Notes under the pieces: model-generated
Seen by the model: only the letters and a program-made list of their open reading frames with translations
Databases searched by the model: none
What the model was told of the DNA's origin: nothing
Made by a program: the position numbers and the translations under genes
Origin: Spiroplasma culicicola AES-1
GTDB taxonomy: Bacteria > Bacillota_I > Bacilli_A > Mycoplasmatales > Mycoplasmataceae
Assembly (NCBI RefSeq): GCF_000565175.1
Contig: NZ_CP006681.1
Location: forward strand, 124,001 to 188,000
Length of the DNA: 64,000 bases
Direction: 5' to 3'
Part shown: positions 387 through 37,437 of the stretch, in pieces
How the letters are laid out: each line of letters begins with the position of its first letter
How positions within the stretch are numbered: position 1 is the first letter of the stretch

Positions 387-1127
387 ATGATAGAGATAAA
401 AAATGTCTCAAGGAAACTGGGTAACTTTGGTTTACAAAATGTTAGTTTTAAAATCAAAAAGGGTTCAGTTGTTGCCTTTGTTGGTGACAATGGAGCTGGA
501 AAAACTACAACAATCAAAGCATTATTTGGTGAATTGAAGATTGATAGCGGTCAGATTTTAATTGATGGTAAAAATATCTTTGAAAATAACAACTTAAAAA
601 AAGTTGCTTTTTTTCCAGATTCAAATAACGTACCAATGAATATTAAAGTCCATGACTATATGCATTACATTTGTGCTGCCAATGGTATTACAAGTGATAT
701 TGCAAACAAAAAAATTGATAGTGTTTATAAATTATTAGAATTAAGACCTTACAAAAACAAAAAAATCAAAGAACTTTCATCGGGTTGAAAGAAAAAGGCT
801 ATTATGGCAAGTGTTCTTATTAGAACACCAGAATATATTGTATTTGACGAACCAACAGCAAATGTGGACGTTGAATCTAAATTATATTTTATGAATATTT
901 TAAAATTATTAGTAAGACAGGGAATTACTGTTTTAATTACAAGTCATATTATTGAAGAACTTCAAGAAGTGGCAAACTATTTAGTATTAATTAAAAAGGG
1001 TGAAATTGTTTATGAAAATGATTTTGACAACCAAAAAGAGCAAATAATGGATGTATACAAACAGCATATGAAAAGTCCAATTAAGGATTTAAGAATTTTG
1101 CAAGAATTGTATCGTGGAGAAATTTAA
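387..1127 (+). CDS. ABC transporter ATP-binding protein, copy 1
   Basis: A 246-residue ATPase that should energise the permease encoded immediately downstream, on the inner face of the membrane. Visible motifs are Walker A GDNGAGKTT near residue 33, Walker B IVFDEPTA near 155, and the H-loop in ITSH near 190. The signature loop is LSSGW instead of LSGGQ, and its W is a UGA codon at 785-787. AAGGAGGAA stands just before the ATG. The protein is about 70% identical by eye to the second ATPase at 3065, so the two ATPase/permease pairs look like a tandem duplication. The family resembles ABC-2/CcmA-type exporters. The substrate cannot be told from sequence. Confidence 0.9.
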
Positions 1128-1128
1128 G

Positions 1129-3045: not shown

Positions 3046-3064
3046 AGGAAAGGAACTATTTTAA

Positions 3065-3823
3065 ATGATTGAAGTTAAAAAAATTACAAGAGATCTTGGT
3101 GGTTTCTTCTTAAATCAAGTAAGTTTTACAATTAAAAAGGGTTCAGTTGTTGCTTTTGTTGGCGATAATGGAGCAGGTAAAACTACAACAATTAAAGCTT
3201 TATTTGGTGAATTGCGATTAGATAGTGGACAAATTTTAATGAATGGAAAAGATATTTTAGATGATCAAAATTTACAAAGAATTGCATTCTTTCCTGATTC
3301 AAATAACGTACCAATGAACATGAAATTAAAAGATTATGTTTCATATATTTGTGCAGTGAATGGAATGTCAAAAAAACAAGCTCAAGATAGAGCTGAAGCT
3401 GTATATACAATGTTAGGGTTAGAACCTTACGTTAATAAGAAATTAAAAAGTTTATCAGCTGGATGAAAGAAAAGAGCAATTATGGCAAGTGTTTTAGTTA
3501 GAGCACCTGAATTTATTGTTTTTGATGAACCAACAGCAAACGTTGATGTTGAAGCAAAATTATCATTTATGAACATTTTGCATGAACTATCAAATATTGG
3601 AGTAACTATTTTAATTACAAGTCATATTCTTGAAGAACTTCAAGAAGTGGCAAACTATTTAGTACTAATTAAAAATGGTGAAATAGTATATGAAAATGAC
3701 TTTGACAATAAAACACAAAAAATATCAGACATTTATAAAACAATTAATGCTCAAAAAACAGATAACATTAGTTTATTAAATGACGTTTATTTAAATGCTG
3801 GAGGTGTTGAAAATGGAAAATAA
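3065..3823 (+). CDS. ABC transporter ATP-binding protein, copy 2
   Basis: A 252-residue paralogue of the ATPase at 387. It carries Walker A GDNGAGKTT, Walker B IVFDEPTANVDV, the H-loop in ITSH, and a signature loop of LSAGW with W encoded by UGA at 3463-3465. The whole segment from Walker A to FFPDSNNVPMN is almost unchanged between the copies. AAAGGAAAGGA precedes the start. The 3' end overlaps the next permease by 11 nt, which suggests translational coupling. The ATPases are far better conserved between the two pairs than the permeases, so the transporters may share an ATPase-driven mechanism but differ in substrate. Confidence 0.9.
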
Positions 3824-5828
3824 TCAAAATCCAATTCAAACAAGCACTGTAAAGCTTAATTTACAAAAACCTGTTAAAGTCAAAAAACAAAAAGAACCTC
3901 GTCAAAAGGGTGAAAAATTTATCAAGCCAATTAAATTTGAAGGTATTTGATTATTATTATGAGTTAATGTTAAAAAAGCATTTACTACAAAAACAATCAT
4001 AGCAATGGGAATTGTTTTCTTAATTATTTCGTTTATCTTTACATCAATATCATTGCCAATGATAGCTTCAGGAGATGAAGTTGGAAAAATTATTTCATGA
4101 ATTGGATATATTTTAACAATGTTCTTCTATATAATTTTTCTATCACTACTAGCAATAATATTGGTTAAAACTCCAATTCTAGAAGGAATTACCCAAATTG
4201 AAATTAGAGCAGGAGTTGCTATTTGAAAATCATATTTAATAAGATTTGCAACATACTTATTAATTGCATTTGCATATTGTTTAGTAAATATGATTATTGT
4301 ATTTAGTTACCTGCCTTTAGCTCAAAACTTAAAATATCTAAGAATGGCCTTTATAATAAGTCCCCCAATTTTCTTATTTATCTTTGCAATAATTTGATAT
4401 CCATTAATTACATTTATTGCATTAATTTGTTCACAAGCAATGGGAATATTTACAAATATTTTTGTTGGAGCAGTAGTTGCAGTTGTACCTATTATTAATG
4501 CTGTTATTCCAGTATTTATGGGAGATTTTGGTGAAAAAAATAAAGATATTCAAGTTAAGACCGTCCAATTACAATTGGCAAATGATTTTTATCAATCAAC
4601 AATTAATGATGAAAATGTAAAAGGTATTTATGAAGAAGATATTTTAAGTCAAATAAATAAAAATATTGATCAGATAAATAAACAACATAATACAACAACG
4701 GAAGATAATATATGTGTTATTAGAACTTTAGATTTAAATTCACTTATTACTTATGATCAAACTTCAGAAGGCAATCCCTCTGGATGTTCTTCAGCGTCAA
4801 ATTATTTAGAATATCTTGAAAGAGCATTCTATTTAGGTGAATTTAATACAAATACTACAACTAATACTGAAATTACAAATGTATTTGATAATCTTTATAT
4901 TTCACAAATTTTATCAGCAATGTTTGATTTAGTTGATGAAAAACTATATGAAGTACCTGTTGGTCATCCTGGATTTAACGAAGCGGGAATATATTATGCA
5001 AGTAGTTCACAAAGTTGATATGATAATTCAAGATCTACAAACTATATAGATATTTCAGTGTTAGTAAAATGATTAGCAAAACAATTACCTGAATATAAAA
5101 ATCTTTTAACAACTATTGAAAAACAATATAATAAATACAAAGAAATTATGTGAGATTACAATTCTATTAATGATAATTATTATTTATATTCAGGAAAATC
5201 ATATTCATATATGAAAATAGCACAAAATGATTTTTATAAAGGTGTACTTGAATTGAATAATGATGCAATTAGTGTTTATAAAAGACATCCAGAATTGGCA
5301 ATCATTAACAATTTAATTATTCAAAATTGAATGAATGTTTATGCACTAAATTCAAGTCTTCAACAGTCAGCTTGAAATGAAGATAATTATGGTGGTAGTT
5401 GAAATACAACATCATTAACAAATGAAGAAATGTTTGAAAAAATGCAAAAACGTACTACTTCACAAATTATTTCTAAATATGCTAATCCAACTCATCATAT
5501 TTCTTCAATGTGAAATGGATTATTTGGTAAAAATGTTATGTTAGATTTACTTGTAAGTGATTCTAGTATGGAAATGATTCCTAGGGGTGTTACCAAAGGA
5601 GTTTCAAATTTAGAAGAGTTTGCTCAATATTCAACATGAGATTATGTCAAAAGTGCCAAAGCAAGTGAAATTGATCCAGATAGAAAAATGGTACCAATGT
5701 TTGAAAAAGTAACTTTAAAAGTTAACTTTGGATATAATGTTTCATTGATAGTATTTATTTATGTTCTATCTTCATTAGGAGTAAATGCTTTAGTTTACTT
5801 AACATATAAAAAACAAGCTAGAATTTAA
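3813..5828 (+). CDS. ABC transporter permease with large extracellular domain, copy 2
   Basis: A 671-residue membrane protein. The N-terminus is about 50 residues, basic and cytosolic (many K, PVKVKKQKEPRQK). It is followed by membrane segments near 64-85, 95-115, 142-165, 180-200 and 205-235, a soluble region of about 400 residues, and a final membrane segment near 645-665. It is the last gene of the four-gene ABC cluster and is followed by a terminator. The start overlaps the ATPase gene. The second copy of the pair has diverged strongly in the soluble domain, which is rich in Tyr and Asn. The substrate is unknown; export of a lipid, peptide or drug is possible. Confidence 0.78.
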
Positions 5829-5949: not shown

Positions 5950-7668
5950 ATGTCAATGAAATTAAAAGGAATTGGGGCAAGTAACGGGATTGCTGTTGCT
6001 AAAGTTTATGTTTTAGACGAACAACCAATCGTTATACCTCAAGAAAATACAACAGATGTTGAAAAAGAATTAGCAAATGTTAGCGCTTCAATTGAAAAAG
6101 CAAAAACAGATTTAGTAAATCTACAAAAAATTGCACTTGAAAAATTGGGTGAAGAAAAAGCAGCTATTTTTGAAGCACATGCTTCAATCTTAGAAGACCC
6201 AGCAATGAGCGAAGAATTTACTGCTTTAATTAAGGAACAAAATTACAATGGAGCAAAAGCAATTGATGAAGTTGCAACCAAATATATTGAAATGTTTGGT
6301 GCAATGGATGATGATTACTTTAGAGAAAGAGCAGCTGATGTTAAAGATGTAACAGAAAGATTAATGCGTTACGTTTTGGGATTACCAGTTGCAGATTTAG
6401 CAACAATTAATGAAGAAGTTATTATTGTTGCAGAAGATTTAACACCATCTCAAACTGCACAGTTAAATCCATTATTTGTAAAAGGATTTGCATGTAATAT
6501 TGGGGGAAGAACTAGTCATGCTGCTATTATGGCAAGAAGTTTAGAGATTCCTGCAGTTTTGGGATTAAAAACTATTGTTCATAGTGTTAAAGAAAATGAT
6601 ATTTTAGCAATGGATGGATTAACTGGAGAAGTTGAAATTAATCCAGCAAACAAAGACGAATGAACTAAAAAAGCTGAGAAATTTAAACAAGAACAAGCTG
6701 AATTAGAAAAATTTAAAACTTTACCAACAGTTACAAAAGATGGATTTGATAAATTTATTTTAGAAGGAAATATTGGTAGTCCAAAAGATGTAGCTGCTGT
6801 TTTAGAAAATGGGGGAGAAGGAGTTGGATTATTTAGATCTGAATTCTTATACATGGACAATGATCATTTCCCTACAGAAGATGAGCAATTTGAAGCTTAC
6901 AAAAAAGTTGTAAGTGACATGAATGGCAAAGTAACAATTATTAGAACACTTGATATTGGGGGAGACAAAAAATTATCATATTTTGAATTCCCAGAAGAAA
7001 TGAATCCATTCTTAGGATATCGTGCAATTAGATTTACATTAGACAGAAAAGATATTTTTAGAGACCAAATTAGAGCTTTACTAAGAGCTAGTGCATTTGG
7101 ACCAATTGGAATTATGTTCCCAATGATTGCAACAGTTGATGAATTTAAAGCAGCAAAACAATTTACACTTGATTGTAAAGTTGAATTAGAAAAAGAAGGT
7201 GTTAAAGTTGGTGCAGATCTAGAAATCGGAATGATGGTAGAAATTCCTGCAGCAGCAGTAAATGCTGAAAACTTTGCAAAACATGCTGATTTCTTCAGTG
7301 TTGGAACAAACGACTTAATTCAATATTCAATGGCTGCTGACAGAATGAGTGAACATGTGACATATTTATACCAACCATATAATCCTTCAATTTTAAGATT
7401 ATTAAAATTAACAATTGATGGAGCACACAAACATGGTAAATGAGCTGGAATGTGTGGAGAAATGGCTGGAGAACCTGAAGCAGTTCCATTATTAATGGGT
7501 TTAGGACTTGATGCTTATTCAATGTCTGCAACAAGTATTCCTCAAGCAAGAAGCATTATGTCAAAATTGACTTTAGAAGAAACTCAAACATTAGCTGCTA
7601 AAGCTCTTGAATGTGAAACTTCTGATGAAGTATTGGCATTAGTAAATGACTTAATGAAAAATAAATAA
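5950..7668 (+). CDS. ptsI: PTS enzyme I (phosphoenolpyruvate-protein phosphotransferase)
   Basis: Enzyme I takes phosphate from phosphoenolpyruvate and hands it to HPr, the first step of PTS sugar uptake. The gene gives 572 residues, the usual length. The active-site histidine is His190 in [13 protein letters not shown]. The PEP-binding TIM barrel follows, with [56 protein letters not shown] and CGEMAG all in order. Two Trp positions are UGA (6661 and 7441). AGGAGGAA precedes the ATG at 5950. The gene is a single transcription unit with its own promoter-like box and terminator; ptsH and crr are in separate units nearby. Confidence 0.97.
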
Positions 7669-7674
7669 TAAGTA

Positions 7675-7700
7675 AAAAAATCCCTTATGGGATTTTTTAT
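7675..7700. terminator. Bidirectional terminator between ptsI and the minus-strand gene
   Basis: AAAAAATCCC-TTAT-GGGATTTTTT is fully symmetric, so it can end ptsI on the plus strand and the converging gene that stops at 7711 on the minus strand. Confidence 0.8.
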
Positions 7701-7710
7701 ATTTTCTGAA

Positions 7711-8445
7711 TTAATTTATAATAAAATCAATTTCAAGAGTTTTGTATCCTTCACTGATAAAAACAATTTTTGTTTTACCAGTATTTTTTGCATTAATTTC
7801 AAATTCAATATTACTAATATTTTGAATTTGAGTAATTGAAACTATATTATTGTTTTTGCAAAAAGCAGTAATATTAATATTTTTATCATCGCTGAATTTG
7901 ATGTTTGTAGTTTGACCTTTTTTAAGTAGATTTGAAGTTAAAACATAAGTAAATTCTTTTTCATTTATATCAACTTTAATTCCATTTGAAATTAAAATAT
8001 TTGTTAAATTATTAATTTGATTCTGTAACAATTGTTGATTTAATTGGGCTTCTTGTTTTTGAATTTTGATTTCTTGTTCAAGAAATTTGTTTCGTGCACT
8101 TTGTTGTTTATAAAGTAACTCACATTCTTTAGTTAGTCTTGGCATTTTTTTATCCTCATTTACAGTGATAAAACTGTTATAGGATGATACATATTTATTA
8201 AATTCTTTGACTATATGATCTTCCATTGCCATTATATCATTGTCATTTGTAGATTTCCAAGACCAATTTGTCTTATCAAAAATAAGATTGTATTTTTCTT
8301 CCATAAAATTTATGAAGGTAAAGTTATCATTATCAATGTCAAATGTATCTTTAAAAAGTCATTCTTGAATAAGTAGATCATCATTTTTAATGAAAGTTAA
8401 ATTTATTTGATTGTTAGAAGTAAAATTGTTGGTTTTATTTTTCAT
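7711..8445 (-). CDS. Hypothetical coiled-coil protein with C-terminal Ig-like domain
   Basis: A 244-residue protein of unknown function. The start at 8445 has AAGGAGAAAT upstream. The first 130 residues are polar and helical, with the signature FNKYVSSYNSFITVNEDKK then MPRLTKECELLYKQQ. A Gln/Lys-rich coiled coil spans about 115-150. The last 85 residues look like a bacterial Ig-like (Big_2-type) strand pattern (GQTTNIKFSD, FEINAKNTGKTKIVF). No signal peptide or membrane segment is visible. Two minus-strand genes near 62 kb share the first two blocks, so this is a dispersed family in this genome. One UGA Trp lies in the stretch QEWLFKDTF, upstream of an internal ATG at 8304. Confidence 0.75.
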
Positions 8446-22573: not shown

Positions 22574-25345
22574 ATGTTGGAAAATAATACAACAGAATTA
22601 CCACTCTCCCGTAGGGAAGAAGTGCAAAATTCTAATTGACATAACTTATCAAATGATAAAATTGTTAAACTTTTAGATACAAATACTCAAACAGGACTCA
22701 GTGAGCAAGAAGCTCAAAAGCGATTGGAAATATACGGGTTAAATAATTTACCCAAATCTAAGAAACCAAATTGATTCTTAATCTTTTTAAAATCATTCTT
22801 AGATCCACTAAGCATCATGATGTCAATTGCAGGGATTTTATCTTTAACAATTTCATTGATTTCAAATGAGTTAACATCTCCAGATATTGCTGGATTGGTC
22901 ATAATTGTTACAATTATTTTGACAAACTCTATTATTTCAACGGTTCAAGAAATAAAATCTTTAAGACAAAGTGAATCGATTAATGAGCAAAGAAATTTTG
23001 CTTGAGTTTTAAGAGACAGTATCAAAAAAGAAATAGACACACAATATTTAGTACCTGGTGACATTATTTTTTCAAAATCAGGTGATTTTGTTGCTGCTGA
23101 TTGTCGAATTTTTAGTAATCAATTGTTAAAAATTGATGAGTCAGCTTTAACTGGAGAAAACGAAGCAATTAATAAGATATCTGAAAAAATTAAAGAAAAA
23201 GATTTGGTTTTAGGAGATCAAAAAAATATTGCTTTCATGTCTACACTAGTTATTGAAGGAAAAATGACAGGAATTGTCATTAAAACAGGAAAAGATTCAG
23301 AAATTGGAAAGATTGCAACTAACATTACAGATCACAAAGCTGAAAGAACTCCTTTAGAATCTAAGGTTATTAGATTAACAACAATTATAGGATTTATTTC
23401 AATTGCTTTAGGAGTTTTAATGTTTTTAGCAACTTTATTAATTCGAGATAACTTGAATCCCGAACTTCAAAGTTATAATAAATTAATGTTAATTGCAGTT
23501 TCATCTGCAATTAGTGTTATTCCCGAATCATTAACAATCATTGTCAAAATTTGTTTATTAGTTGCTAGTCGCAAAATGGCTAGAAAAAATGTATTAATTA
23601 AAAATCCTAAATCAATTGAAACTTTAGGAAATGTAAACATTATTTGTTCAGATAAAACTGGAACACTAACACAAAACCAAATGACAGTCGATGGTGTCAT
23701 TGTAAATATGACAACAATTGAAAAAGACAAGTGAAATCCCCAAGAATCACAACATTTATTAAATTGTATGGTATTGTGTAATGATGCATATATCGAAAAT
23801 GAAGAAAAAGTAGGAAGTGCAACAGAAATTGCACTTGTAAAACTTTTAATAGATCACAAAATTGATTATTTAAAAGAAAGAAAAGTAAATCGCAGAATTG
23901 ATGAAATTCCATTTAGTTCATCAAGAAAAATGATGTCAACAGTTAATACAATTGGGAGACAAAAATATTTATATACTAAAGGAGCTGTTGATTATTTAAT
24001 TCAGAATTGTCAATCAAAACTTGTAAATAATAAAGTAACTCGAATTGAAGAAGAAGATTTCAATATTTTAAGAGAACAATTACAAACTTATGCTGCAAAA
24101 GGTATGCGTATGATTGGTTTTGCATATAAAGAGATGCACAATGAACAACATGCAAAAGAAGATAATTTAATCTTTTTAGGAGCAGCTGCAATTATTGATC
24201 CTCCAAGAGAAGAAGTTGCTAAGTCAATTCAAGAAGCTAATGCTGCTGGAATTCGTGTAATTATGATTACTGGAGATCACAAAATTACTGCATTAGAAAT
24301 TGCAAGAAGATTAACAATTGCCAATGAGCATTATAATGATGTTATAACTGGTGCAGAAATTGAAAATATGGATAAAGAGGAATTAACTAAGAAACTTGAA
24401 ACAACTAATGTTTTTGCAAGAGTTAATCCAGAACATAAAGCATTAATTGTTGAATTATTACAATCACAAAAAAATATTGTTGCTATGACTGGAGATGGAG
24501 TTAATGATTCACCAAGTTTAGTAAAAGCAGATGTTGGAATTGCAATGGGAATTACTGGAACAGATGTTTCCAAAGAAGTAAGTGATGTTGTTTTAGCAGA
24601 TGATAATTTCAAGAGTATTATTGCTGGAGTTAATTCAGGAAGAAACGTTTATGAAAAAATTAAGTATTCAATTTCATTCTTAGTTGCTGCAAATATAAGT
24701 CAAGTATTGACATTGTTATTAATTATGGCAATTTATAATACACTTGCTTTAAATTCAGTAAATATATTATTTCATATCTTTGTTGTTGAAACAATTGTGG
24801 CGATTCCAATTGGGATGCAAAAAGAAAGAAAAGGGGTTATGAAAAATCAACCTCCAAAAAATAAGAATGAATCGCTTTTAAAAGGAATTTTTATTCAAAT
24901 CATAATTACAACAACTTTAAACAGTTTAATTGCATTATTTAATTATCAAATTGCAATTTGATGACTTGGAGATAGTTATGCAGCACAAGAATATGGTAAA
25001 ACTGGAGTTTATATTGCAATTATGTTTGGACCAATTATTTATTCATTCATATATAATAATTTCTTTTTAGCAATTAATTTTAAAACAGATCACAAAACTG
25101 ATCGTTATCGTCCAAACAAATGATTAATTATTTTTGTTTTAATAGCAGTAAGTTTAACAATAATGACAATGTTACCATTTGAATTTATTAATGAATTCTT
25201 TGATTTTAAAACAGTGGGATTAAATTTAGGACTATTAATGATATTTATATTAAATACAATATTAATTACTCCATTAATTTGAATGTTTTATTGTTTAACA
25301 GGTAAATGCATTTTAAAGTATAAAGAAAGAAAAACTAAAATATAA
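22574..25345 (+). CDS. P-type (type II-like) cation-transporting ATPase
   Basis: A 923-residue membrane pump. Visible motifs in order are the actuator TGE in SALTGENEA, the phosphorylated Asp360 in DKTGTLTQNQM, the nucleotide-domain FTKGA-like YTKGAVDYL, TGDHKITALEIA, and the hinge GDGVNDSPSLVKADVGIAMG. The plan matches calcium-type (P2A) pumps such as PacL. The transport sites differ: M4 reads PESL followed by a Lys in IIVKIC, and M5-M6 lack the SERCA acids (NISQV for NVGEV, FVVET for NLVTD). So the ion is not certain. The only in-frame start is ATG 22574, with AGAGG 9 nt upstream. Confidence 0.9.
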
Positions 25346-25354
25346 AACATATTT

Positions 25355-25382
25355 AAAACACTTTTAATAAAGTGTTTTTTTC
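25355..25382 (+). terminator. Terminator of the P-type ATPase
   Basis: AAAACACTTT-TAAT-AAAGTGTTTTTTT. This marks the left edge of the accessory island. Confidence 0.88.
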
Positions 25383-25494
25383 ATTAAATTTATTTAATAA
25401 TAGGAGTAAAATTAAATTAAATATGAAAGAAAGCAAACTAATAATAAAAGTAATATAAATCTAATCGTAATGGAACACTGAAAAGGACTAAATT

Positions 25495-26955
25495 ATGGCT
25501 AGAAAAATTCAACCTTATCAACTAATTACTTATCCTAAAAAAATTACATATGCTAATCCCAAAAATAATAAAAATAATTTTTGGGATTTGTTATTCAAAA
25601 TAATTGCAATAGAAGTAGTTTCAATCTTAGTTGGTACATTAACAGCTGGAGTTGGAGGAGCAGCAGTTCAAACATGAGGCTTTTCACAACTAGGAATCGC
25701 ATCTACACAATTAGTGATTAGAGCTACTGTAGATTTTACTATACATCAAATGTTTGATTCATCAATGGGAATTAAATCCAGTAAAAATACACTTTTGAAT
25801 CTATTTTTTAGTTTTTCAAATATTGGTTCTCTTGGTAGAGCTAGAAAAACAGATAAAATAATAAAAATTTTAAATGAACATCAATTATTAAATAAAATTG
25901 GAATTAAATATACAGTTAATAATTTATTTGAAATTAAAAAGGCACTTCAATATAAAAAAATTATATTAAGTAATAATAAAAAAATAACATTTTCTAAAAA
26001 AATAACAGATTTAGAAATATTACAAACAATTATGGCAATTTCATCTAAAGAAATGAAAAGTTCTTTAAAAAGAATGTCACAAAAAGAGTTACAAGCACTT
26101 ATTGAAATGGAAAAATTATTATATAAAGTAAGTCCTGATTTATTTGCAGACCTTAAAAATTTAAATACCACAAAATATAATAATAATTTTAAACAAGCTT
26201 TTAATTTAAATATAGATGAATTTTTGAATTTAAAAGATAAAGATGCAATTGAAATATTATTAAAATTAAATAAAAATTCCAAAATATCAAAAGAAATAAT
26301 AATGATAAATAGATTAAGAATACAAAAACAACTTCAAGAAACTTTAATTGCAAGTTTCAAAGATATTGGGAAAGTAACCCAAAATACATTGAATATGTTA
26401 AACCCACAAAAATATTTAGAAATTGCAATTGATAAATTATTAGCTCCAATTTATAAATCTATGGATAAAATAATAAAAAATTCTAGAAATAATTTAATTC
26501 GATTAAATAAAAATATTAGACGAACGATCAAAAAATATAATATATACGCATGCAATCCAAATTCTTCCTTTATTGGTTTTATATTTAAACCAATATCGTT
26601 TTTAGGAGATGGATATATTGAATTATGAAAGGAAATTTCTTATAAAAGTACAACAGATAAAGATATAAAAAAATATTCAAAATTAGTATTTTGAACAAAT
26701 ATTAAACAAGTTGAAGAATTCTCATATTCAAAAAATCAAGATTATTACTTTAATATAAAATGAAAAAATAAAAAAAATATAAATAAAATAGAAGCTGAAA
26801 ACTTAAATAATATTTATGAAGATAGCATAAATAGTTTAAAACATATTAAAAATATAAAAGAACTTTTAAATAGGCAAAGTATAAGAGTAAAAAATATAAA
26901 TCCATCAAAAATTGTAAATAAAATTTCTGATTCTTTAAATGTAAAGTTTAAATAA
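25495..26955 (+). CDS. Island gene X: hypothetical protein with N-terminal hydrophobic segment
   Basis: A 486-residue protein I do not recognise. Residues about 29-65 are hydrophobic and Gly/Ala-rich (IIAIEVVSILVGTLTAGVGG), with a possible amphipathic continuation to about 115. Most of the rest is Lys/Asn/Ile-rich and helical, with charged repeats such as MSQKELQALIEMEKLL. The C-terminal 100 residues have several Trp (mostly UGA) and a mixed fold. There is no signal peptide; the N-terminus is short and polar before the hydrophobic stretch. It is the first gene of the accessory island, 31 nt before gene Y. The A-rich codon use is stronger than in the flanking housekeeping genes. A membrane-active or virion-internal role is only a guess. 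Confidence 0.65.
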
Positions 26956-26986
26956 TTAGAAATTTATAATAAGGAGAAATGAAAGT

Positions 26987-28216
26987 ATGAAAGAATTAAA
27001 TAAAAAAATTTTAAATGAATTTAATGAAAATTATAAAGATATAAAACTTGATTTTAATAGTAAAAAAGAAAATGATATTAGAAATGGTATTTATGAAATT
27101 ATTTATGGAAAAGAAAAAATTAATTCTTCAAAAGAAAAAGAAGAAACTTTAAATGAATATATAACTAATTTATTTGATTTATCAAATATACAATGAGTTT
27201 TAAAAGATAAAAATGGTGAAATAAATATTGAGCTACAAAACTTATTACAAACTTATTTAAGCAAAACTGATTTTTTATCAAAATTTTGAATTACAAAATT
27301 CAAAGCGGGAATGCAAGGGAAATATGGTTTATTAATAGTTGAAATAAAAGACAAAAATTCTTATTCAAGGCCTGAATTAATTCCAGTAAAAGTAATATTT
27401 GAAAATAGTTTTGATAATCAAGTTTTTGAATCTTTGTTATCTTTTGAAGAAACAACATATTCTAATAAAGAATTAATTTATTTCTTACAACGACATTATT
27501 TAATAAAAAATAATAAAGTTCAAGTAACTTCTAAATTAATAGATTATAAAACTAATTCTTTAATAAAAAGTGATAAAATATCAAACTTAATCAAACAAAA
27601 TTTAGATTTAAAAAAGAAAAACTTAGAATTTGATTTTATTCCTTTATCAATATTAAAAAATGATATAACTGGTAAACCAAGATGTGAAAAAGTAAAAAGC
27701 AAATTAGAAATGTTAGATAAATTTGATGAAGTAATAGCTATACTTCCTCATTGAGAAAAGGGTTCAATTATATTTAATGGTAATTCTGTTGAACCTCAAA
27801 ATAAACCTCAACAGTTATATGAATTTATGAAAGGAATATTACTTGATGGGATGATTCAAATGAAACCAATTGAAATTGAGGGTATCCCATCCAATTTAAA
27901 TGAAAATATTATTAATTGAAATCCAACTTCAATATTGAAAGTAGTTAGAAAAACAAGAAATGATATTTATGAAGAAATTAAATTAGATCTTGGTTTTCCA
28001 GTTGATGAAATTACAGAACCGAATAAAAATGATTATAATTCAATATTTTTAAATAATCCAAATATTAAAAGAGAACTAAGATTAATAAAATTATTTCTTA
28101 TAGACATGGCATATAAATTTTTAAGTATTTTACAAAAATCTAATATTCAAGAAACATTCCCTGATATTGATTTAAAACAAATAGAGATTAATGTTAATTT
28201 AGGCATAAACGAATAA
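26987..28216 (+). CDS. Island gene Y: hypothetical protein, portal-like plan
   Basis: A 409-residue protein. AAGGAGAAAT precedes the ATG, and it lies 22 nt before gene A1. No membrane segment or signal peptide is present. The order of features recalls siphophage portal (Gp6-type) proteins. A stretch near 105-120 (WITKFKAGMQGKYGLLIVEI) resembles the portal core. The next block ends in IPLSILKND near 225, followed by a helix (KLEMLDKFDEVI). A C-terminal helical part with RKTRNDIYEEIKLDLGFPVD near 320 and RLIKLFLIDMAYKFL near 360 ends in an IEINVNLG strand. This is fold-order similarity only; no signature was matched. If real, Y would be the only head-type gene in the island. Confidence 0.65.
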
Positions 28217-28237
28217 TTTTTAATAAAGGAGAATTAT

Positions 28238-30304
28238 ATGAGTAATCAAATAAAAAATGTTTCTGATATTTCAGATGAAGAATTTATTGAAAGTTTTACA
28301 GCAAAACAAAAGTATAGAAAAAAAGAAAATATAAATGATTTATTATATTTAAGTAAACAAGTTGTGCAAGTTTTTATCTATCCATTAACAACACTAAATG
28401 GCAAAAAGTTAATTGAGGGTTTAAGAATTGGAGAAAATAAAATAAATTTAATGGCAACAACTATTGATAAAGTTATTTCAATAAAAGCATATCTTTCAGA
28501 TATTCAAGATTATGATTTGGTAGAATCATTAGATCCTTTAAATCCACTTGAACAATTAATGAGAGTAACTGATACAATTAATTTTTTTACCGATGAAATT
28601 AAAGAGTTAGATTATGAGTGTTTGTATCTTTTGACAAAAGAAAAAATAACTGAGAATAATTTAAATGACTTAAAACAATATATTGGCAAAATTATTACAC
28701 CAAGTATTGATGAAACTGGTATGGAAATGAGTTTTAGTTCTTTAGAAGAGTTTTCAAGTAGTTTTAAAACTTCTCCAATTAGAGTTGTATTAAGTGAACC
28801 AATTAAAAGTAAAATTAAAGAAATACATATTACAAGTCCAAAAGGAACATTAATAGGAAATATTAAACCAGTTGATGAAAATGGTAGATTTCCAGAATTA
28901 TTAGCTAAAAAAGGAACAGAAATTTTTCCTAAATTATGTTTTCCATTTCAAATTGCTCCAGTAGTAAGCATTGTTGATTATTGAAGTAGTGACCAAATAA
29001 TTCCTTTAAATGATATATTTGAATTTTTAGATTCTAAGAATATCAAGCATGATGAAGAATTTAGTTTAGCAGACTTTCTAGTTCTTGGAGAAGAAGGTGA
29101 TTATCCAACAATTCATTTTAATCATGCAAGTAAAATTGAAATCCGATCTACAGGTAGAGAAGCTAATATTGGACGTTGAGTAAGTTATCAAGCGGGTGGT
29201 TGTTATGTAACTGATGCGTATGATGAGAGAGATTATATTGGTACTGAAGAGTTTAATTTAGAAAATGGAATTAAATCGATTCAAATTAACTGTGCATTTC
29301 AAGGTCAAGGACCAATTCATAATCTTCATAGCAAAATTGGACCAAGTGGTAGAAATATAAAAGACATGTCTTGTGATATAACTGAAGGTAGTGTTTCTAA
29401 AAAGACAACTGCTTTTGAGACACTTTTAAAGATGCTAACTGAAACTTTTTGAAAAGATTATGAATTTAAAGGTGCAACAGAAAGTAAAAAAAATAATAAT
29501 GGAGAATGAGAACTAAAAATAAAAGATGAAAAAATTTATGAATTACTTGAAAAATATGCAGGTCAAGATAGATATGCAGTAACTACAAATTTATGATTGA
29601 GTTGAAAAAAAATAAATATTGATAAAGTAAATGCAAATTTAAAAATAGTTAAACGTATTGAAAATACGATTACAATGTTATCTGGATATATAAAATCAAA
29701 TTTTTCAATTAATAAAGGTGATAATGATGATTATAAAATACTGTTACCCTTCTATTTTGAATTGCAAAACAAAATTGATAATCCAATTGGGATGATAAAT
29801 TATACAGATATAAAGGTAAAGTTAAAATCTAATTACTTTGAATTTACTGAAACTGGCATTAAATTAAAAGATAATTGTATTTCCAGAAACCTAGTCCATA
29901 AACTCGAATATAATCATTATGCATTTCCTGAAATGACAAACATGATTGAAACTGCAAGCATACCTTCTAGTATGCCACTTGATCAACAAACTGCTAATGG
30001 TGAATATTCAAAATATCAGGTTAAGTGTTTCTCTAATCAAGAATTAGATATTGAAAAGCTAAAAAATCATTATGGTAGTGGAAATATAAATTTTAATCCT
30101 TTATCTAGCAACAAAATAGTAAATAATGGAGAATTTGAGTTTGAGGTACCAGTTACAATTGAAGAAATAAAGTTATCTTCATTTTATGGATACGGACTGT
30201 GAAGAATTAATTTAATTGATGAAAATAATAATAGTTATAAATTGGGTTTAAAGTTATTTGATAAAAATGACTCAACAATTTCATATATAAATTTGATATT
30301 ATAA
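28238..30304 (+). CDS. Island protein A1: large two-part protein with variable middle
   Basis: A 688-residue protein of unknown function; AAAGGAGAA precedes the ATG. Residues 1-165 are mainly helical and acidic (DISDEEFIESFTAKQKYRKK). About 165-285 is mixed. About 287-385 is Gly- and His-containing and differs completely from the same region of A2 (CYVTDAYDERDY, QGQGPIHNLHSKIGPSGRN). From TTAFETLLKMLTETFWKDYEF to the end the two proteins are again closely similar, with a strand-rich C-terminus (YFEFTETG to SSFYGYGLWRINLIDENNNS). No signal peptide or membrane segment. A phage-structural or adhesive role is possible because fibre-like B genes are interleaved with the A genes, but this is inference. 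Confidence 0.7.
28265..28741 (+). repeat. 477-bp identical direct repeat, copy 1 (in A1)
   Basis: By eye this stretch is identical base for base to 32349-32825 in A2 (offset 4084). After it the two copies drift to about 85-90% identity for about 350 bp, then diverge fully in the variable middle. Confidence 0.85.
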
Positions 30305-30330
30305 ACTTGTAAATGAAAGGATATGCCAAT

Positions 30331-30693
30331 ATGAAAAGGTTTATAAATATTATGTCTGCTTTTACTGTAACAGTTACTACAAGTTCAGCTACAGCAATGG
30401 TAGTATCATGTAAAGGAGATTATATGGTTAAGTTATATCATTTGCATAGTGTTCAAGGAAAATGAGAAGTTACCCCTGAACATCCAAATAATTTAATTAT
30501 TGAAGTTGATAAACGTGATATTAAGAAATATACATTGGAAGAAGGAATTTATGAAAATACAAGAATTGCATTTTATATGAAAGATGGAAGTATTAATAAC
30601 ACCAATGATAAGTGATGATCAGGTCCAGCAATACAATATGAATATTATTTTACTAAAGAATTAGGATTTGGTCCAGATGTAGAACAAGAATAG
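30331..30693 (+). CDS. Island lipoprotein L1
   Basis: A 120-residue predicted surface lipoprotein. The signal peptide MKRFINIMSAFTVTVTT is followed by a mollicute-type lipobox ending VVSC, with Cys27 as the lipid anchor, then the fixed KGDYMVKLY. Residues about 36-55 are variable between the four copies. The C-terminal half is fixed: IIEVDKRDIKKYTL, FYMKDGSINN, WWSGP, and FTKELGFGPDVEQE at the end. The gene starts 26 nt after A1. The stop codon lies inside a terminator hairpin. I do not recognise the family. Copies L2-L4 form a tandem array further on. Confidence 0.85.
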
Positions 30694-31689
30694 CGATAGC
30701 TATTCTTTTTATTTATAATTTTAACTTTATTTTTTAATGTCAATTACAATAAAGTTGAGCATATATTTTAATAATTAATAGTTGTATTTTAATCATTCTT
30801 TATTAAGACATTTAAATTTAAGGAGTGAAAAAATGACTAATTTTAAACTATGAACTATAACAAGTTTTGAAGAATATGTTAATGAATGACCATCATTGGC
30901 AAATGAATTTAATAATTTAACAACTTATCAACAAAAATTGGGATATACATCTCCAGAAGATTTTTTCATTAAAAATGCTTTTGCAGCCCAAGAATTGGCA
31001 AATCAAAGAGTTGGCAATATTTTGGAAAGAATATTTTCAACATCAGATTTGCATGCTAATGTTCAAGAACAATTAAAAAAATTTACATATAAAGCAATTG
31101 ATCATTTAAGAATGAATGATTGTGTAATTTATCAAAATACAAAAACAATTCAAACAAATTATAATAATGGTAGAAGCGATAGTATTGAAAATGATTTAAA
31201 TGTATCTTTAGAAAAAATAATTGGTGATAGTGCATGAAGAAGTTGAATTGGTGCTAACATTGAATCATTATATTTAAGATATTTAAAAGAAAATGATTTA
31301 CCATATCTTTTAGATCCAGAACAATTTTATAATAAAAAACAAATTGATGATTTTTTTGAAACTATTGATTGAAAAATTTATGAAGAGCATACTTATACAA
31401 CTGTTCACATTAGAGATTTGCAAAAACAAATTAATAGAAAACAAGAAGTGACAGATCAAGTATTATTACAACAAAAAACAGATGATGAGGGAAATCCAAT
31501 TGATGAAATTGAAGAAGTGGGATATTTTGATGAGATTTTATTTCAATCTTTTAGACCAGACTCAACAATCATTGATACAGATAGAGGCAGAAAACGAGCA
31601 GTTATAAATTTAAATGATACTATTGGAGAATTAATAAATGCTAGTGTTTATCAAAGTTCAAGTGAATCAGATCAAAAAAATGCAATTGG
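30502..31689 (+). repeat. 1.19-kb near-identical direct repeat, copy 1
   Basis: It covers the second half of L1, the terminator, the intergenic promoter region and the first 285 codons of B1. It matches 35609-36796 at a constant offset of 5107 bp. I count about five mismatches, including GTC/GTG before the B promoter, GTA/GTT near the L stop, and GTA/ATA in the B codon that gives Val or Ile. Confidence 0.88.
30686..30712 (+). terminator. Terminator overlapping the L1 stop
   Basis: AAGAATAGC-GATA-GCTATTCTT then TTTAT. The TAG stop sits in the left arm. Near-identical hairpins follow L3 and L4; that of L2 has decayed. Confidence 0.85.
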
Positions 31690-32332
31690 TAGAATCTGAG
31701 GGTGAGGGATCGAAAATTATTTAAAACATTCGGAAGAAACTTTTAATGAAAAATTTAAACAATTAGAAGATAAGATTTTAGATATTAATAAAAATAAATG
31801 AATTATTGGTGAATATAAATGAGTTAAAGTAGGCACTCCTATAGTGAAAGGCTGAATAAAAATCAATTTAACTACAGGTTATACATTAATAGCTGGTACA
31901 TCACAATCTACATCGACTGGTTCTATAAAAAGTCATACACATACTTCAAACGCTCATAATCATTATATTAATGGCTCAGGAAATTATGTACCAGTTCTTA
32001 TGGGTGGGGCAAAATGATATAAAAGAAATGCCGATAATGGTGCTGGAGACAATAAGGCAATTGTTTCTGATACAAATAATCCCAATATAGCTAACATTGC
32101 ATTAACAGATTCTGCATCTTCTAAAATTAATTCTACGGGTGGATCATCTAATTTAGCTGCAGGGCAATATGCTGAACTTTGAGAATATGTGGGAATTGAT
32201 GCAAAAGGAGAAACCTTAAATACTAATTTAAATGCAAAACTGAGTTATTGACAAAAAAATGATATTTTAGATAAAGAATATAAAGATAATGATGAATGTG
32301 CCCCTTTGAAGGGAGAAAAATATGATGAATAA
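30833..32332 (+). CDS. Island protein B1: fibre-like protein with collar-type tip
   Basis: A 499-residue protein with AAGGAGTGAAAAA before its ATG. Residues 1-285 are shared almost unchanged with B2 (helical, with KKFTYKAIDHLRMNDCVIY, then DRGRKRAVINLNDTIGELI). A short coiled coil (about 300-325, EEKF-type heptads) leads into WIIGEYKWVKVGTP. The tip then has GWIKINLTTGYTLIAG, a His cluster SHTHTSNAHNH, and a Gly/Asn-rich end with GGSSNLAAGQYAELWEYVG. The HxH cluster after a coiled coil is the plan of phage tail-fibre collar/tip domains, where His binds metal. About 40 extra residues follow the tip in B1 only. The 3' end overlaps A2 by 11 nt. Confidence 0.75.
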
Positions 32333-34412
32333 TGAAAAATTTAAAAATGATATTTCAGATGAAGAATTTATTGAAAGTTTTACAGCAAAACAAAAGTATA
32401 GAAAAAAAGAAAATATAAATGATTTATTATATTTAAGTAAACAAGTTGTGCAAGTTTTTATCTATCCATTAACAACACTAAATGGCAAAAAGTTAATTGA
32501 GGGTTTAAGAATTGGAGAAAATAAAATAAATTTAATGGCAACAACTATTGATAAAGTTATTTCAATAAAAGCATATCTTTCAGATATTCAAGATTATGAT
32601 TTGGTAGAATCATTAGATCCTTTAAATCCACTTGAACAATTAATGAGAGTAACTGATACAATTAATTTTTTTACCGATGAAATTAAAGAGTTAGATTATG
32701 AGTGTTTGTATCTTTTGACAAAAGAAAAAATAACTGAGAATAATTTAAATGACTTAAAACAATATATTGGCAAAATTATTACACCAAGTATTGATGAAAC
32801 TGGTATGGAAATGAGTTTTAGTTCAATTGAAGAATTTTCAAATAGTTTTAAAACTTCTCCAATTAGAGTAGTATTAAGTGAACCTATTAAAAGTAAAATT
32901 AAAGAAATACATATCACAAGTCCAAAAGGAACATTAATAGGAAATATTAAACCTGTTGATGAAAATGGTAGATTTCCAGAATTATTAGCTAAAGCAGGAA
33001 CTGAAATTTTTCCTAAATTGTGTTTTCCATTTCAGACTTCACCAGTTTTAAGTATTGTAGATTATTGAAGTAGTGATCAAATAATTCCATTGAATGATAT
33101 TTTTGAATTTTTAGATTCTAAAAATATTAAATATAATGAAGAATTTAGTTTAGCTGATTTTCTAGTTCTTGGAGAAGAAGGAAATTATCCTGCAATTAAA
33201 TATGATCATGTTGAAAAAATAAGTTTTAAATTACATATGAAAGCATACAAAACAAGGGGTAGTAGTGGTAATGGTCCTTCAGGAATTGTAGATGATATAT
33301 TCAATATGGAATTTAGCAATGCAAATAAATTTGGTGAAGGAAATTTGACAAAGATATTTACTAAACCAAATGCAAAGGATAACTACTTTGATGCAGATAT
33401 TGCAAATGAATTTGATACAGAATTTGCAATTCAATCAGGAGTATTTAAAGGGAAAATTCAATATAAATATTCTATATCTGATTTAAATGTTATTCCTACA
33501 GGGATTTCAAAATCCACAACTGCTTTTGAAACACTTTTAAAAATGCTAACTGAAACTTTTTGAAAGGATTATGAATTTGAAGGAGCGACTCAGGAAAAAC
33601 AAAAAGATGGACAAATAATTGAGGAAATTAAAGATTGAGATATTTTTAAATTAAGTCAAAAATATGCTGGTCAAGATAGATATTCAGTAACTACAAATTT
33701 ATGGTTAAGTTGAAAAAAAATAAATATTGATGCAGTGAATGCTAATTTAAGTATGGTTAAAAGGATTGAAAATACTATTACAATGTTATCTGGATATATT
33801 AAATCTAATTTTTCTATTAATAAAGGAGACAATGATGACTATAAAATATTGTTACCATTCTATTTTGAACAACAAAACAAAATTGATAATCCAATTGGTC
33901 ATGTAAAATATGAAGATATAAAAGTAAAATTAAAATCTAATTATTTTGAATTTGGTGAAGATAATATTAAAATCAAAGATAATTGCATTTCAAGAAATTT
34001 AGTTCATAAGCTTGAATATAATCATTATGCTTTTCCTGAAATGACTAATATGATTGAAACAGCAAGTATACCTTCAAGTATGCCTCTGGATCAACAATCA
34101 GCAAATGGTGAATATTCAAAGTATCAAGTAAAATGTTTTTCAAATCAATTAGTAGATATTGAAAAATTAAAAAATCATTACGGTAATGGAAATATAAATT
34201 TTAATCCTCTATTTAGTAATAAAATAGTAAATAATGGAGAGTTTGAGTTTGATGCACCAATTACAATTGAAGAAATAAAGTTATCTTCATTTTATGGATA
34301 CGGATTGTGAAGAATAAATTTAATTGATGAAAATAATAATAGATATAAATTAGATTTAAAGTTATTTGAAAAAAATGACTCAACTATTTCATTTATAAAT
34401 TTGATATTATAA
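32322..34412 (+). CDS. Island protein A2: paralogue of A1 with a different middle
   Basis: A 696-residue protein. Residues about 10-285 and from about 398 to the end are nearly identical to A1. Between them the sequence is unrelated and about 10 residues longer (GSSGNGPSGIVDDIFNM, NEFDTEFAIQSGVFKG). The first nine residues also differ from A1. Two adjacent ATG codons (32322 and 32325) fit the ribosome site GGGAG at 32309; the first is chosen. It overlaps the B1 stop, so B1 and A2 are probably translated from one mRNA. One Trp is TGG here where A1 has TGA (codon in NLWLSW), so the copies are drifting. Confidence 0.72.
32349..32825 (+). repeat. 477-bp identical direct repeat, copy 2 (in A2)
   Basis: This is the partner of 28265-28741. 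Its borders are inside coding sequence and match no gene border, as expected for gene conversion or unequal crossing over. Confidence 0.85.
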
Positions 34413-34438
34413 ATTTGTAAATGAAAGGATGAGTCAAT

Positions 34439-34810
34439 ATGAAAAGGTTTATAAATATGATGACTGCTTTTACTGTTACAGTTACTACAGTTTCAACTGC
34501 AACAATGGTAGTTTCATGTAAAGGAGATTATATGGTTAAGTTATATAAACTGTTTCCTGGAAATAATAATAGTTGAGTTCCTTCTAGTCATGATAATTTT
34601 TTGATCATTGAAGTTGATAAACGTGATATAAAGAAATATACATTGCATGGTTCTGAAACAGCAACCCCTTATGTTACAAGGATTACCTTTTATATGAAGG
34701 ATGGAACTATTAACAATACTAATAATAAATGATGGTCAGGTCCTAAATCAGAATATGAAAAATACTTTATTAAAGAATTAAGGTTTGGTCCTGATGTAGA
34801 ACAAGAATAG
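34439..34810 (+). CDS. Island lipoprotein L2
   Basis: A 123-residue lipoprotein of the L family. The signal peptide MKRFINMMTAFTVTVTTVST and lipobox VVSC are identical to L3. The variable block reads KLFPGNNNSWVPSSHDN. A second variable spot follows KKYTL (HGSETATPYVTR). The C-terminus has WWSGPKSEYEKYF and FGPDVEQE. It follows A2 by 26 nt with the same spacing sequence as A1-L1. The stop-codon hairpin found after the other copies is mutated here, so transcription may run on into L3. Confidence 0.83.
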
Positions 34811-34935
34811 GAATAACTAATCTTTTTTATCTAGTAACAATCTTAATATATAGGAATTTTCGATATTTTCTTGTACTTTAAACAATGATTTAACAATTTG
34901 ATATTATAAATTTGTAAATGAAAGGATGAGTCAAT

Positions 34936-35307
34936 ATGAAAAGGTTTATAAATATGATGACTGCTTTTACTGTTACAGTTACTACAGTTTCAACTGCAAC
35001 AATGGTAGTTTCATGTAAAGGAGATTATATGGTAACACTACATTTTTTGACGCCTTCTGGACCTAACAATTCATGAATTCCAGCTGAAGGAGATAAAAGT
35101 ATTATTATTGAAATTGATAAACGTGATATTAAAAAATATACATTATGAGGAGATAATGCATATCCAGATTTAACAGAAATTGATTTTTATATGAAAGATG
35201 GAACAGTTAATAGCACTTCCAAACGTAATTGGTCAGGTCCTAAATCGGAATATGAAAAATATTTTACTAAAGAATTAGGATTTGGTCCAGATATTGAACA
35301 AGAATAG
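34936..35307 (+). CDS. Island lipoprotein L3
   Basis: A 123-residue L-family lipoprotein with the same signal peptide and lipobox as L2. The variable block is HFLTPSGPNNSWIPAEGDKS. After KKYTL it has WGDNAYPDLTEI, also unlike the other copies. The ending FTKELGFGPDIEQE is fixed. The Trp in RNWSGP is TGG, while L1 and L4 use TGA there. Its own terminator overlaps the stop. It is probably a separate transcription unit driven by the AT-rich leader that is repeated before each copy. Confidence 0.83.
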
Positions 35308-35325
35308 CAAATGCTATTCTTTTTT
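35299..35325 (+). terminator. Terminator overlapping the L3 stop
   Basis: AAGAATAGC-AAAT-GCTATTCTTTTTT is a 9-bp perfect stem containing the TAG stop. Confidence 0.85.
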
Positions 35326-35431
35326 GTCCAGTAACAATCAAATATATAGGAAGTTTCAATATTTTCTTGTATTATAAACAATGATTTAACAATTTGATAT
35401 TATAAATTTATAAACGAAAGGATATGCCAAT

Positions 35432-35800
35432 ATGAAAAGATTTTTAAATATGATGACTGCATTTACTGTTACAGTTACTACAGTTTCAACCGTAACAATG
35501 GTAGTTTCATGTAAAGGAGATTATATGGTTAAGTTATACATGTTACATCAAGCAGGCCCTGGTGGATCTTGAATTCCATCAGGAGATGAAGGTGGTCCAT
35601 TAATAATCGAAGTTGATAAACGTGATATTAAGAAATATACATTGGAAGAAGGAATTTATGAAAATACAAGAATTGCATTTTATATGAAAGATGGAAGTAT
35701 TAATAACACCAATGATAAGTGATGATCAGGTCCAGCAATACAATATGAATATTATTTTACTAAAGAATTAGGATTTGGTCCAGATGTTGAACAAGAATAG
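35432..35800 (+). CDS. Island lipoprotein L4
   Basis: A 122-residue L-family lipoprotein. The signal peptide is like L2/L3 with small changes (RFLNMMTAF, STVTMVVSC). The variable block is MLHQAGPGGSWIPSGDEGG. From VDKRDIKKYTLEEG onward it is identical to L1, not to its tandem neighbours. The gene is therefore a mosaic: L2/L3-like in the first part and L1-like in the second, with the switch at about 35609, where the 1.19-kb repeat begins. The same terminator hairpin as L1 overlaps the stop (35793-35819). Confidence 0.84.
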
Positions 35801-36796
35801 CGATAGCTATTCTTTTTATTTATAATTTTAACTTTATTTTTTAATGTGAATTACAATAAAGTTGAGCATATATTTTAATAATTAATAGTTGTATTTTAAT
35901 CATTCTTTATTAAGACATTTAAATTTAAGGAGTGAAAAAATGACTAATTTTAAACTATGAACTATAACAAGTTTTGAAGAATATGTTAATGAATGACCAT
36001 CATTGGCAAATGAATTTAATAATTTAACAACTTATCAACAAAAATTGGGATATACATCTCCAGAAGATTTTTTCATTAAAAATGCTTTTGCAGCCCAAGA
36101 ATTGGCAAATCAAAGAGTTGGCAATATTTTGGAAAGAATATTTTCAACATCAGATTTGCATGCTAATGTTCAAGAACAATTAAAAAAATTTACATATAAA
36201 GCAATTGATCATTTAAGAATGAATGATTGTGTAATTTATCAAAATACAAAAACAATTCAAACAAATTATAATAATGGTAGAAGCGATAGTATTGAAAATG
36301 ATTTAAATGTATCTTTAGAAAAAATAATTGGTGATAGTGCATGAAGAAGTTGAATTGGTGCTAACATTGAATCATTATATTTAAGATATTTAAAAGAAAA
36401 TGATTTACCATATCTTTTAGATCCAGAACAATTTTATAATAAAAAACAAATTGATGATTTTTTTGAAACTATTGATTGAAAAATTTATGAAGAGCATACT
36501 TATACAACTGTTCACATTAGAGATTTGCAAAAACAAATTAATAGAAAACAAGAAGTGACAGATCAAATATTATTACAACAAAAAACAGATGATGAGGGAA
36601 ACCCAATTGATGAAATTGAAGAAGTGGGATATTTTGATGAGATTTTATTTCAATCTTTTAGACCAGACTCAACAATCATTGATACAGATAGAGGCAGAAA
36701 ACGAGCAGTTATAAATTTAAATGATACTATTGGAGAATTAATAAATGCTAGTGTTTATCAAAGTTCAAGCGAATCAGATCAAAAAAATGCAATTGG
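35609..36796 (+). repeat. 1.19-kb near-identical direct repeat, copy 2
   Basis: This is the partner of 30502-31689. It spans the second half of L4, its terminator, the promoter region and the first 285 codons of B2. The right border falls where the B coiled coil begins, exactly where the B tips start to differ. Confidence 0.88.
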
Positions 36797-37256
36797 AAGA
36801 ATATGAGCATGAGGGATTGAAAATACTTTAAAATTAGCAAATAAAAAGTATGATGAAGATATAAAAGAACTAAAAAAGAGAATAAAAGAAATTGATGATA
36901 ATAAATGAATTATTGGTGAAAGAAAATGGGTTAAAATTGGAACTCCTTTATTATCTGGATGAAAAAAAGTAGAATTACCTAGTGGATTTACACTTGTATC
37001 AGGTATAAGTGAAGGTCTTACTACTGGTGAAAATAAGGAACATTCCCACTCTGGTGAAGCGCTTCTTTCTAATAAAGCTTCAGGTGGTCAGGGAGGAGTA
37101 CCTTGATCATCAAGCTTTCCAAGTTCTTTAAATATTTATGGGGCTTTTTTAGGAGTTCCAAAATTAGCTTTAGATATTAAAACTGAGGGTGGTAAAAATA
37201 ACTTATCTGCAGGAATGTTCTCTGATTTGTGAGAGTACATTGGTAGTAAAGAATAA
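35940..37256 (+). CDS. Island protein B2: fibre-like protein, alternative tip
   Basis: A 438-residue paralogue of B1. Residues 1-285 differ from B1 at one residue that I can see (Ile for Val in VTDQILLQQ). The coiled coil (YDEDIKELKKRIKEI) and WIIGERKWVKIGTP keep the plan of B1. The tip is different: GWKKVELPSGFTLVSG, the His cluster KEHSHSG, GGQGGVPWSSSFPSS, then GGKNNLSAGMFSDLWEYIG. It ends five residues later, without the tail found in B1. The shared frame LxxGxTLxxG, HxH, GGxxNLxAGxxxxLWEYxG shows that both tips belong to one fold family. It is the last island gene, and a tRNA promoter follows. Confidence 0.75.
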
Positions 37257-37309
37257 ATAAGATTGAATTAAAATTGTAGTGTAAAAATAAAAAAATTTAT
37301 AAAAAAATC

Positions 37310-37339
37310 TTGCTTTTCTATTTAGTTATATGCTATTAT
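37310..37339 (+). promoter_or_regulatory. Promoter of the Asn-Glu-Val-Thr tRNA group
   Basis: TTGCTT at 37310-37315 and TATTAT at 37334-37339 are 18 nt apart. The -10 box ends 22 nt before tRNA-Asn. Confidence 0.65.
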
Positions 37340-37361
37340 GAATAAGTAGATTTTTCTATAT

Positions 37362-37437
37362 GGCTTTTTAGCTCAGTTGGTAGAGCAACCGGCTGTTAAC
37401 CGGTTGGTCGCAGGTTCGAGTCCTGCAAAAGCCGCCA
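37362..37437 (+). tRNA. tRNA-Asn (GTT)
   Basis: A 76-nt cloverleaf with encoded CCA. The anticodon loop is CTGTTAA. Confidence 0.96.

Follow-up and report, generated by a model that had tools for sequence, protein, structure and literature searches.

The ten-gene island and its exchangeable blocks

The stretch analysed here (the window) comprises 64,000 nucleotides of the Spiroplasma culicicola AES-1 genome (NZ_CP006681.1, positions 124,001 to 188,000) and carries an island of ten genes, almost certainly of prophage descent, that lacks head and packaging genes. The genome is a single contig of 1,175,131 bases and is read in genetic code 4 (TGA = Trp); in this code all ten genes are open on the plus strand between 25495 and 37256, in the order X-Y-A1-L1-B1-A2-L2-L3-L4-B2. 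A reading in table 11 was discarded because it interrupts the ten genes at TGA codons. On the left, the gene of a P-type ATPase stops at 25345 and is followed by a terminator-like hairpin, and on the right a tRNA Asn-Glu-Val-Thr array begins at 37362; the gene count and both borders given in an earlier note, made from the letters alone, were thus right. The genes have 20–31% GC and normal codon-position bias. The longest open runs in mononucleotide shuffles were at most 114 codons for X (25495–26955, 486 aa) and at most 118 for Y (26987–28216, 409 aa), so that both frames are open far beyond chance.

Behind X and Y lie three recurring families, all on the plus strand. A1 (28238–30304, 688 aa) encodes a putative tail-type protein with a frame of residues 1–300 and 400–688 around a hypervariable block at about 300–385, and is followed by L1 (30331–30693), which encodes a small lipoprotein with the lipobox VVSC. 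B1 (30833–32332), of fibre type, has a constant frame of about residues 1–290 and a variable tip with an HxH motif, and its reading frame overlaps by 11 nt that of A2 (32322–34412), a second A about 81–83% identical to A1 with a different variable block. The second cassette contains three lipoprotein genes, L2 (34439–34810), L3 (34936–35307), and L4 (35432–35800), and the island closes with the fibre-type B2 (35940–37256), whose frame is practically identical to that of B1 and which carries another tip and ends directly after it. Searches of the whole genome found exactly two A, two B, and four full-length L genes, all of them within the island. Terminator-like hairpins that take in the stop codon close L1 (30686–30707, −11 kcal/mol, z −5.1), L3 (35300–35321), and L4 (35793–35814), suggesting that the transcription units may be A-L, then B-A-L-L, then L, then B.

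The divergence between the copies was concentrated in single blocks. A1 and A2 showed no nucleotide differences over codons 21–160 and mostly silent differences over codons 160–300, where divergence was moderate (synonymous divergence, dS, 0.42; w 0.14), and over codons 400–700 (dS 0.53, w 0.18), whereas in codons 300–400 the nonsynonymous divergence (dN) reached 0.90 with a dS of 0.84. Likewise, B1 and B2 differed by 3 nt in the first 280 codons (840 nt), whereas dN and dS were both about 0.85 in the tip (dN 0.84). The second half of L4 is practically identical to that of L1, and this shared half belongs to a 1.55-kb direct repeat that begins in the A1 3' end, spans L1, and reaches into the B frame (30290–31840, plus strand), the second copy of which, with L4 and the B2 frame (35391–36947, plus strand), is 93.6% identical. 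These comparisons bear out the proposal of the earlier note that each family consists of a fixed frame and one variable block. In an alignment of eight island and phage sequences, identity was 8–15% in the A block (about 301–375) against 33–83% in its flanks, and 8–16% in the B tip; since the drop also occurs among the phage sequences, both regions are hypervariable in phages too. The pattern looks like an older duplication after which recent conversion or partial re-duplication evened out the frames but left the blocks distinct.

The tip domain of B was matched at 36% identity over 157 aa in a protein of another genus (G026). This 540-aa protein (L181:5130–6749, minus strand), the backbone of which was missed by the B profile, may be a fibre tip on a different body. 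The build of B together with this recurrence of its tip suggests that B is a fibre, as the fibre-tip plan of the earlier note had it. The B protein of one congeneric phage (G017, L021:3862–5691) carries, in place of the tip, a domain of IIKVDNSGQETII-type repeats and so differs from the B proteins of the window with their HxH tips. Neither A nor B shows a strong hydrophobic segment or a signal peptide recognizable by eye, and of the variable proteins only L is predicted to be exported, which fits assembly inside the cell better than it fits a classical adhesin. Against Pfam, PHROGs, and NCBIfam, the ten proteins gave only sub-threshold noise; the match to an ordinary enzyme or adhesin that the earlier note had named as contrary to its reading was not found there. 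Nothing useful came from a sequence search of the Protein Data Bank (PDB), for which B1 and the profiles of four families (A, Y, terminase, and capsid) served as queries.

The prophage family of origin

The A family is present in 34 of 248 genomes of the order, and X, Y, A, L, and B each have homologues in terminase-bearing prophages of Spiroplasma-type Mollicutes. A1 is 62% identical to the A protein of the G017 phage and L1 38% identical to the L protein of the G006 phage; X is 39% identical to its homologues in both phages (E to 1e-108; family profile, 6e-132), and Y is 44% identical to the G006 phage Y (E 6e-115; profile, 1e-111). The island can be taken as practically certain, on these homologies, to descend from a phage of this family, and the inference of the earlier note, that the locus is partial or domesticated phage DNA with exchangeable exposed parts, gains a concrete source. 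Named carriers include S. ixodetis, S. poulsonii, S. phoeniceum, a Danaus symbiont, and Mesoplasma lactucae. Prophage regions have been reported in such genomes, though the family carrying A was not described (PMC9742256, PMC13375240); the phage-like contigs of about 19 kb obtained from S. poulsonii particles (PMC12453411) are not equated here with the A-bearing family.

Complete prophages were found in G006 (L023), G017, G018, G092, G142, G024, and others. In these genomes, apart from G024, which has a different gene order and a methylase, the order is RuvC-like protein, p117, small acidic protein, putative capsid, X, B, two membrane proteins, Y, A, L, and terminase, with the two membrane proteins unrecognized in some prophages. 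The terminase appears securely identified from matches to PHROG_2 (3e-5, one member) and PF04466 (3.6e-4, another) and from its Walker-type and nuclease-type motifs; the putative capsid is a conserved protein of 280–350 aa whose role is read from place and size only. Compared with these prophages, the island shares the homologues of X, Y, A, L, and B, the placing of L after A, and a terminator that closes L at its stop codon, but it is without the RuvC-like protein, p117, the scaffold-like protein, the capsid, the two membrane proteins, and the terminase; its B is relocated behind A-L, its cassettes are duplicated, and X and the tails of B are shorter. In three congeneric phages (L021, L022, and L023), a conserved sequence ending AAAAAAAGATTTGGTTGACTCCTATTTAAAAG stands behind the L terminator, a candidate packaging or attachment site, and had no match in the window. 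S. ixodetis-type genomes hold dozens of prophage copies each (L027 and L034 = G040; L028 and L035 = G053; L060–L076), several of which contain inserted transposases and broken genes.

Ejection proteins can be encoded beside the capsid gene, and in the phages the X homologues directly follow the putative capsid gene. X has a single strong hydrophobic segment (residues 32–50) and is about 45–90 aa shorter than the phage versions; its place and this segment make it a candidate ejection or membrane-channel protein. A basic C-terminal tail of X was dropped as a phage mark because charge gave no clear separation of groups. The portal-like plan that the earlier note saw in Y is strengthened by place and homology, while on the side of the fold there is a hint: a viral fold search with a member of the Y family ranked two portal proteins first (E 1.7e-4 and 2.2e-4), but from a poor query model (predicted local distance difference test, pLDDT, 32) and with low TM-scores. 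Both X and Y are more AT-rich than their phage counterparts, and in trees their branches are long (1.04 for X against 0.37–0.44 for the nearest phages; 0.82 for Y against 0.41).

Probable parallel loss of head genes in three islands

Two profiles, both of which detect the terminase of relatives, found no terminase in the whole S. culicicola genome, and neither the congeneric putative capsid nor a broader profile found a capsid of the A-bearing family there; the membrane protein KPEF was not found in the genome either. The absence of terminase and capsid, noticed earlier for the locus, hence extends for this phage family to the whole genome. A split prophage of which the island would be one half, as in G014, was rejected on this ground, and so was a gene transfer agent, in that the terminase and capsid of the A-bearing family, to which the genome search was confined, are absent.

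A full-length or near full-length A was present in 21 genomes, 18 of which have the terminase. The remaining three, S. culicicola (G000), M. lactucae (G032), and G128, belong to three genera. All three islands have X, a gene in the Y slot, A, B, and an anchored L-type gene, and in each the locus is without genes for head, packaging, and replication; the A/L/B cassettes are duplicated in two of them (G000 and G032). As the mixed-type capsid profile missed other capsid types (G024 and G180), the surroundings of the M. lactucae and G128 loci were checked with the right capsid types, and no capsid gene was found there.

The M. lactucae island (L030 and L194; G032:C1:432000–446700) lies between housekeeping genes in the order B-A-L, zinc-type protein, X, two membrane proteins, Y slot, B, coiled coil, A, L, with Y assigned by position as the Y profile does not reach that protein. 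Compared with the complete G024 prophage, the surroundings of this locus are without RuvC-like protein, methylase, p117, scaffold, capsid, and terminase. At the island edge, a pair of membrane proteins (278 and 291 aa) occurs in duplicate. The G128 island, X-Y-A-membrane-anchored protein-B (L175:8802–16450; G128:C1:1225801–1233449), sits between genes resembling PTS crr and ptsI, and the anchored protein in its L slot is not recognizably homologous to L; upstream of it (7380–8297) is a lipoprotein resembling an EndA-type nuclease.

The same kinds of genes were kept and lost in these two islands as in S. culicicola, but they belong to other phage clades and occupy other chromosomal sites, and that of M. 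lactucae still has the two membrane proteins. In the A tree, the S. culicicola copies grouped with congeneric phages, M. lactucae with G024, and G128 with the ixodetis and f9 phages, although the fork placing G128 was weakly supported and some branches were long. Because the three islands nest in different phage clades, the losses of head genes are most simply read as independent in the three genera. This apparent parallel, in which like parts were kept, the same parts were lost, and cassettes were multiplied in two of three cases, is the main new point of the comparison.

The island was absent from the corresponding site in all 19 congeners examined, where the interval from the Trk/ATPase genes to the tRNA array is occupied by other genes or nearly empty (519 bp in G018, 263 bp in G011); the ten genes fixed in all relatives, which the note had named as contrary to its reading, were accordingly not seen. 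The stretch upstream of the tRNA-Asn array (25345–37362 of the window; L119–L137) varies in gene content across the genus. Elsewhere, related remnants are broken (G005, G026, and a second copy in G014). Ten intact frames, normal codon bias, X and Y that are intact despite their long branches, and these broken remnants together argue that the island has probably been retained by selection. An ordinary prophage remnant in early decay, in which head and packaging genes were deleted and the remainder is still unbroken, would agree with the abundance of partial prophages in the order, with the higher AT content of X and Y, and with the shortening of X, Y, and the tails of B. We consider it quite unlikely, because ten of ten frames are intact where other remnants of the A-bearing family are broken, in each of the three islands the same genes were retained and the same genes lost, and cassettes were multiplied in two of the three islands.

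Even less probable, and by far, is a helper-dependent satellite or a store of tail genes that would be supplied to, or swapped with, phages bringing capsid and terminase. Long near-identical frames beside divergent tips suit recombination with phages, and suitable phages are present in relatives, but no integrase, replication gene, or packaging signal was recognized, the window has no match to the sequence found behind L in phages, no att-like repeat longer than 13 bp was seen at the island, and the S. culicicola genome has no helper of the A-bearing family.

Proposed function and relation to known systems

L has a signal peptide, a lipobox, and a cysteine invariant in the alignment, and is predicted to be a lipoprotein. 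Outside the citri, ixodetis, and f9 groups, it stands 9–82 bp behind A in all 12 loci with a full-length A, and a lipoprotein follows A even where the L sequences are not recognizably alike. In G011, one intact orphan L with its own terminator lies beside tuf (L206:9175–9528; G011:C1:205174–205527, minus strand), and searches of that genome detected no A, B, terminase, or capsid. Vir, a lipoprotein of the Mycoplasma phage MAV1, confers resistance to superinfection (PMC7466169). Taken together, the adjacency of A and L, the orphan L, and the Vir precedent suggest that L is a candidate immunity or superinfection-exclusion protein.

One reading of these data is superinfection exclusion only, in which L, perhaps with an excess of A, B, or Y, would block adsorption or assembly of related phages and no killing particle would be made. 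The place of the lipoprotein beside A in prophages and islands, its four copies here and its solitary occurrence in G011, the example of Vir, and the frequency of A-family prophages in the order all agree with it. Because exclusion leaves unexplained both the long intact X, Y, A, and B in three genera and the diversified tips of A and B, we regard it as unlikely.

Considering these results as a whole, we propose that the island is a retained infection apparatus that makes headless complexes, with L as self-immunity; known here from its genes, this is the best overall explanation, to which we assign a probability of roughly 0.45. The source would be a tailed, probably short-tailed prophage that lost its genes for replication (the RuvC-like protein), scaffold, capsid, and DNA packaging and kept the portal-like Y, a membrane-active, ejection-type X, A with its variable block, the fibre B with its variable tip, and the lipoprotein L. 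X, Y, A, and B may assemble into headless tail-type complexes that would bind related wall-less cells via A and B, whereupon X would breach the membrane; for such targets no wall-cutting enzyme would be needed. L on the surface of the producer would block matching A and B tips, giving self-immunity, and would also exclude related phages. Duplication and gene conversion would keep the frames needed for assembly similar as tips and L genes diverge. That the complexes serve killing or interference, with immunity through L, is a tentative proposal that we consider less likely than not. Broader still, and in our view rather doubtful, is the proposition that, at least three times in Mollicutes, a short-tailed phage has become a killing or delivery complex that has no head but keeps the portal and has interchangeable A and B tips and immunity lipoproteins.

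Several points weigh against the headless apparatus. The purifying signal in A1 and A2 could predate capture, having built up in phages, and the long X and Y branches could belong to an unsampled phage lineage. No release gene was recognized in the island, and the citri, ixodetis, and f9 groups have no same-strand lipoprotein after A. Known tailocins derive from long-tailed phages, and a portal is not expected there. The structure prediction that the earlier note had proposed as a check yielded only low-confidence AlphaFold models for A1 and a Y homologue (mean pLDDT 38 and 32); matches to PDB folds, with lipid-binding barrels on top, were discarded as chance sheet resemblances of such models.

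Like R- and F-type tailocins, the island is phage-derived and headless and has intact genes and exchangeable parts that resemble receptor-binding tips, with the likeness read from genes alone; it differs in keeping a portal-like gene and in having candidate immunity lipoproteins. For sheath, tube, baseplate, and tape-measure proteins, the ten proteins gave no Pfam or NCBIfam match at the cut-off and no convincing PHROGs match. A complete tailed prophage would have the terminase and major capsid that are missing here, and for a satellite resembling phage-inducible chromosomal islands, no integrase or replication gene was recognized among the ten, and the post-L sequence has no match in the window. 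Variable surface lipoproteins or adhesins are not matched by A and B, which vary but have no export signals. Lipobox, cysteine, and position beside A in prophages place L among phage-borne lipoproteins of the Vir-like class; the likeness to Vir, also a phage-encoded mollicute surface lipoprotein, is drawn from the kind of protein, and L differs in being multi-copy and tied to A, while resistance is shown for Vir (PMC7466169) and a candidate role for L. We would therefore file the island as a variant of domesticated phage-derived machinery, presumably tailocin-like in its working, without the defining parts of R- or F-type tailocins, gene transfer agents, or complete prophages. Elsewhere in the window (387–5828), an ABC-type ATPase and a large permease-like protein of unrecognized family are encoded as a pair, and two such pairs stand in tandem.

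The prophage family is abundant, yet A matched nothing in the phage records of INPHARED or the viral contigs of IMG/VR. The known headless weapons of phage origin come from long-tailed phages and from bacteria with a wall, and we know of no comparable rival-attacking system in wall-less insect symbionts. If the proposed apparatus is real, it would extend such weapons to these symbionts, from a probably short-tailed phage with the portal kept, and the island would offer a small system for testing which tip pairs with which lipoprotein.

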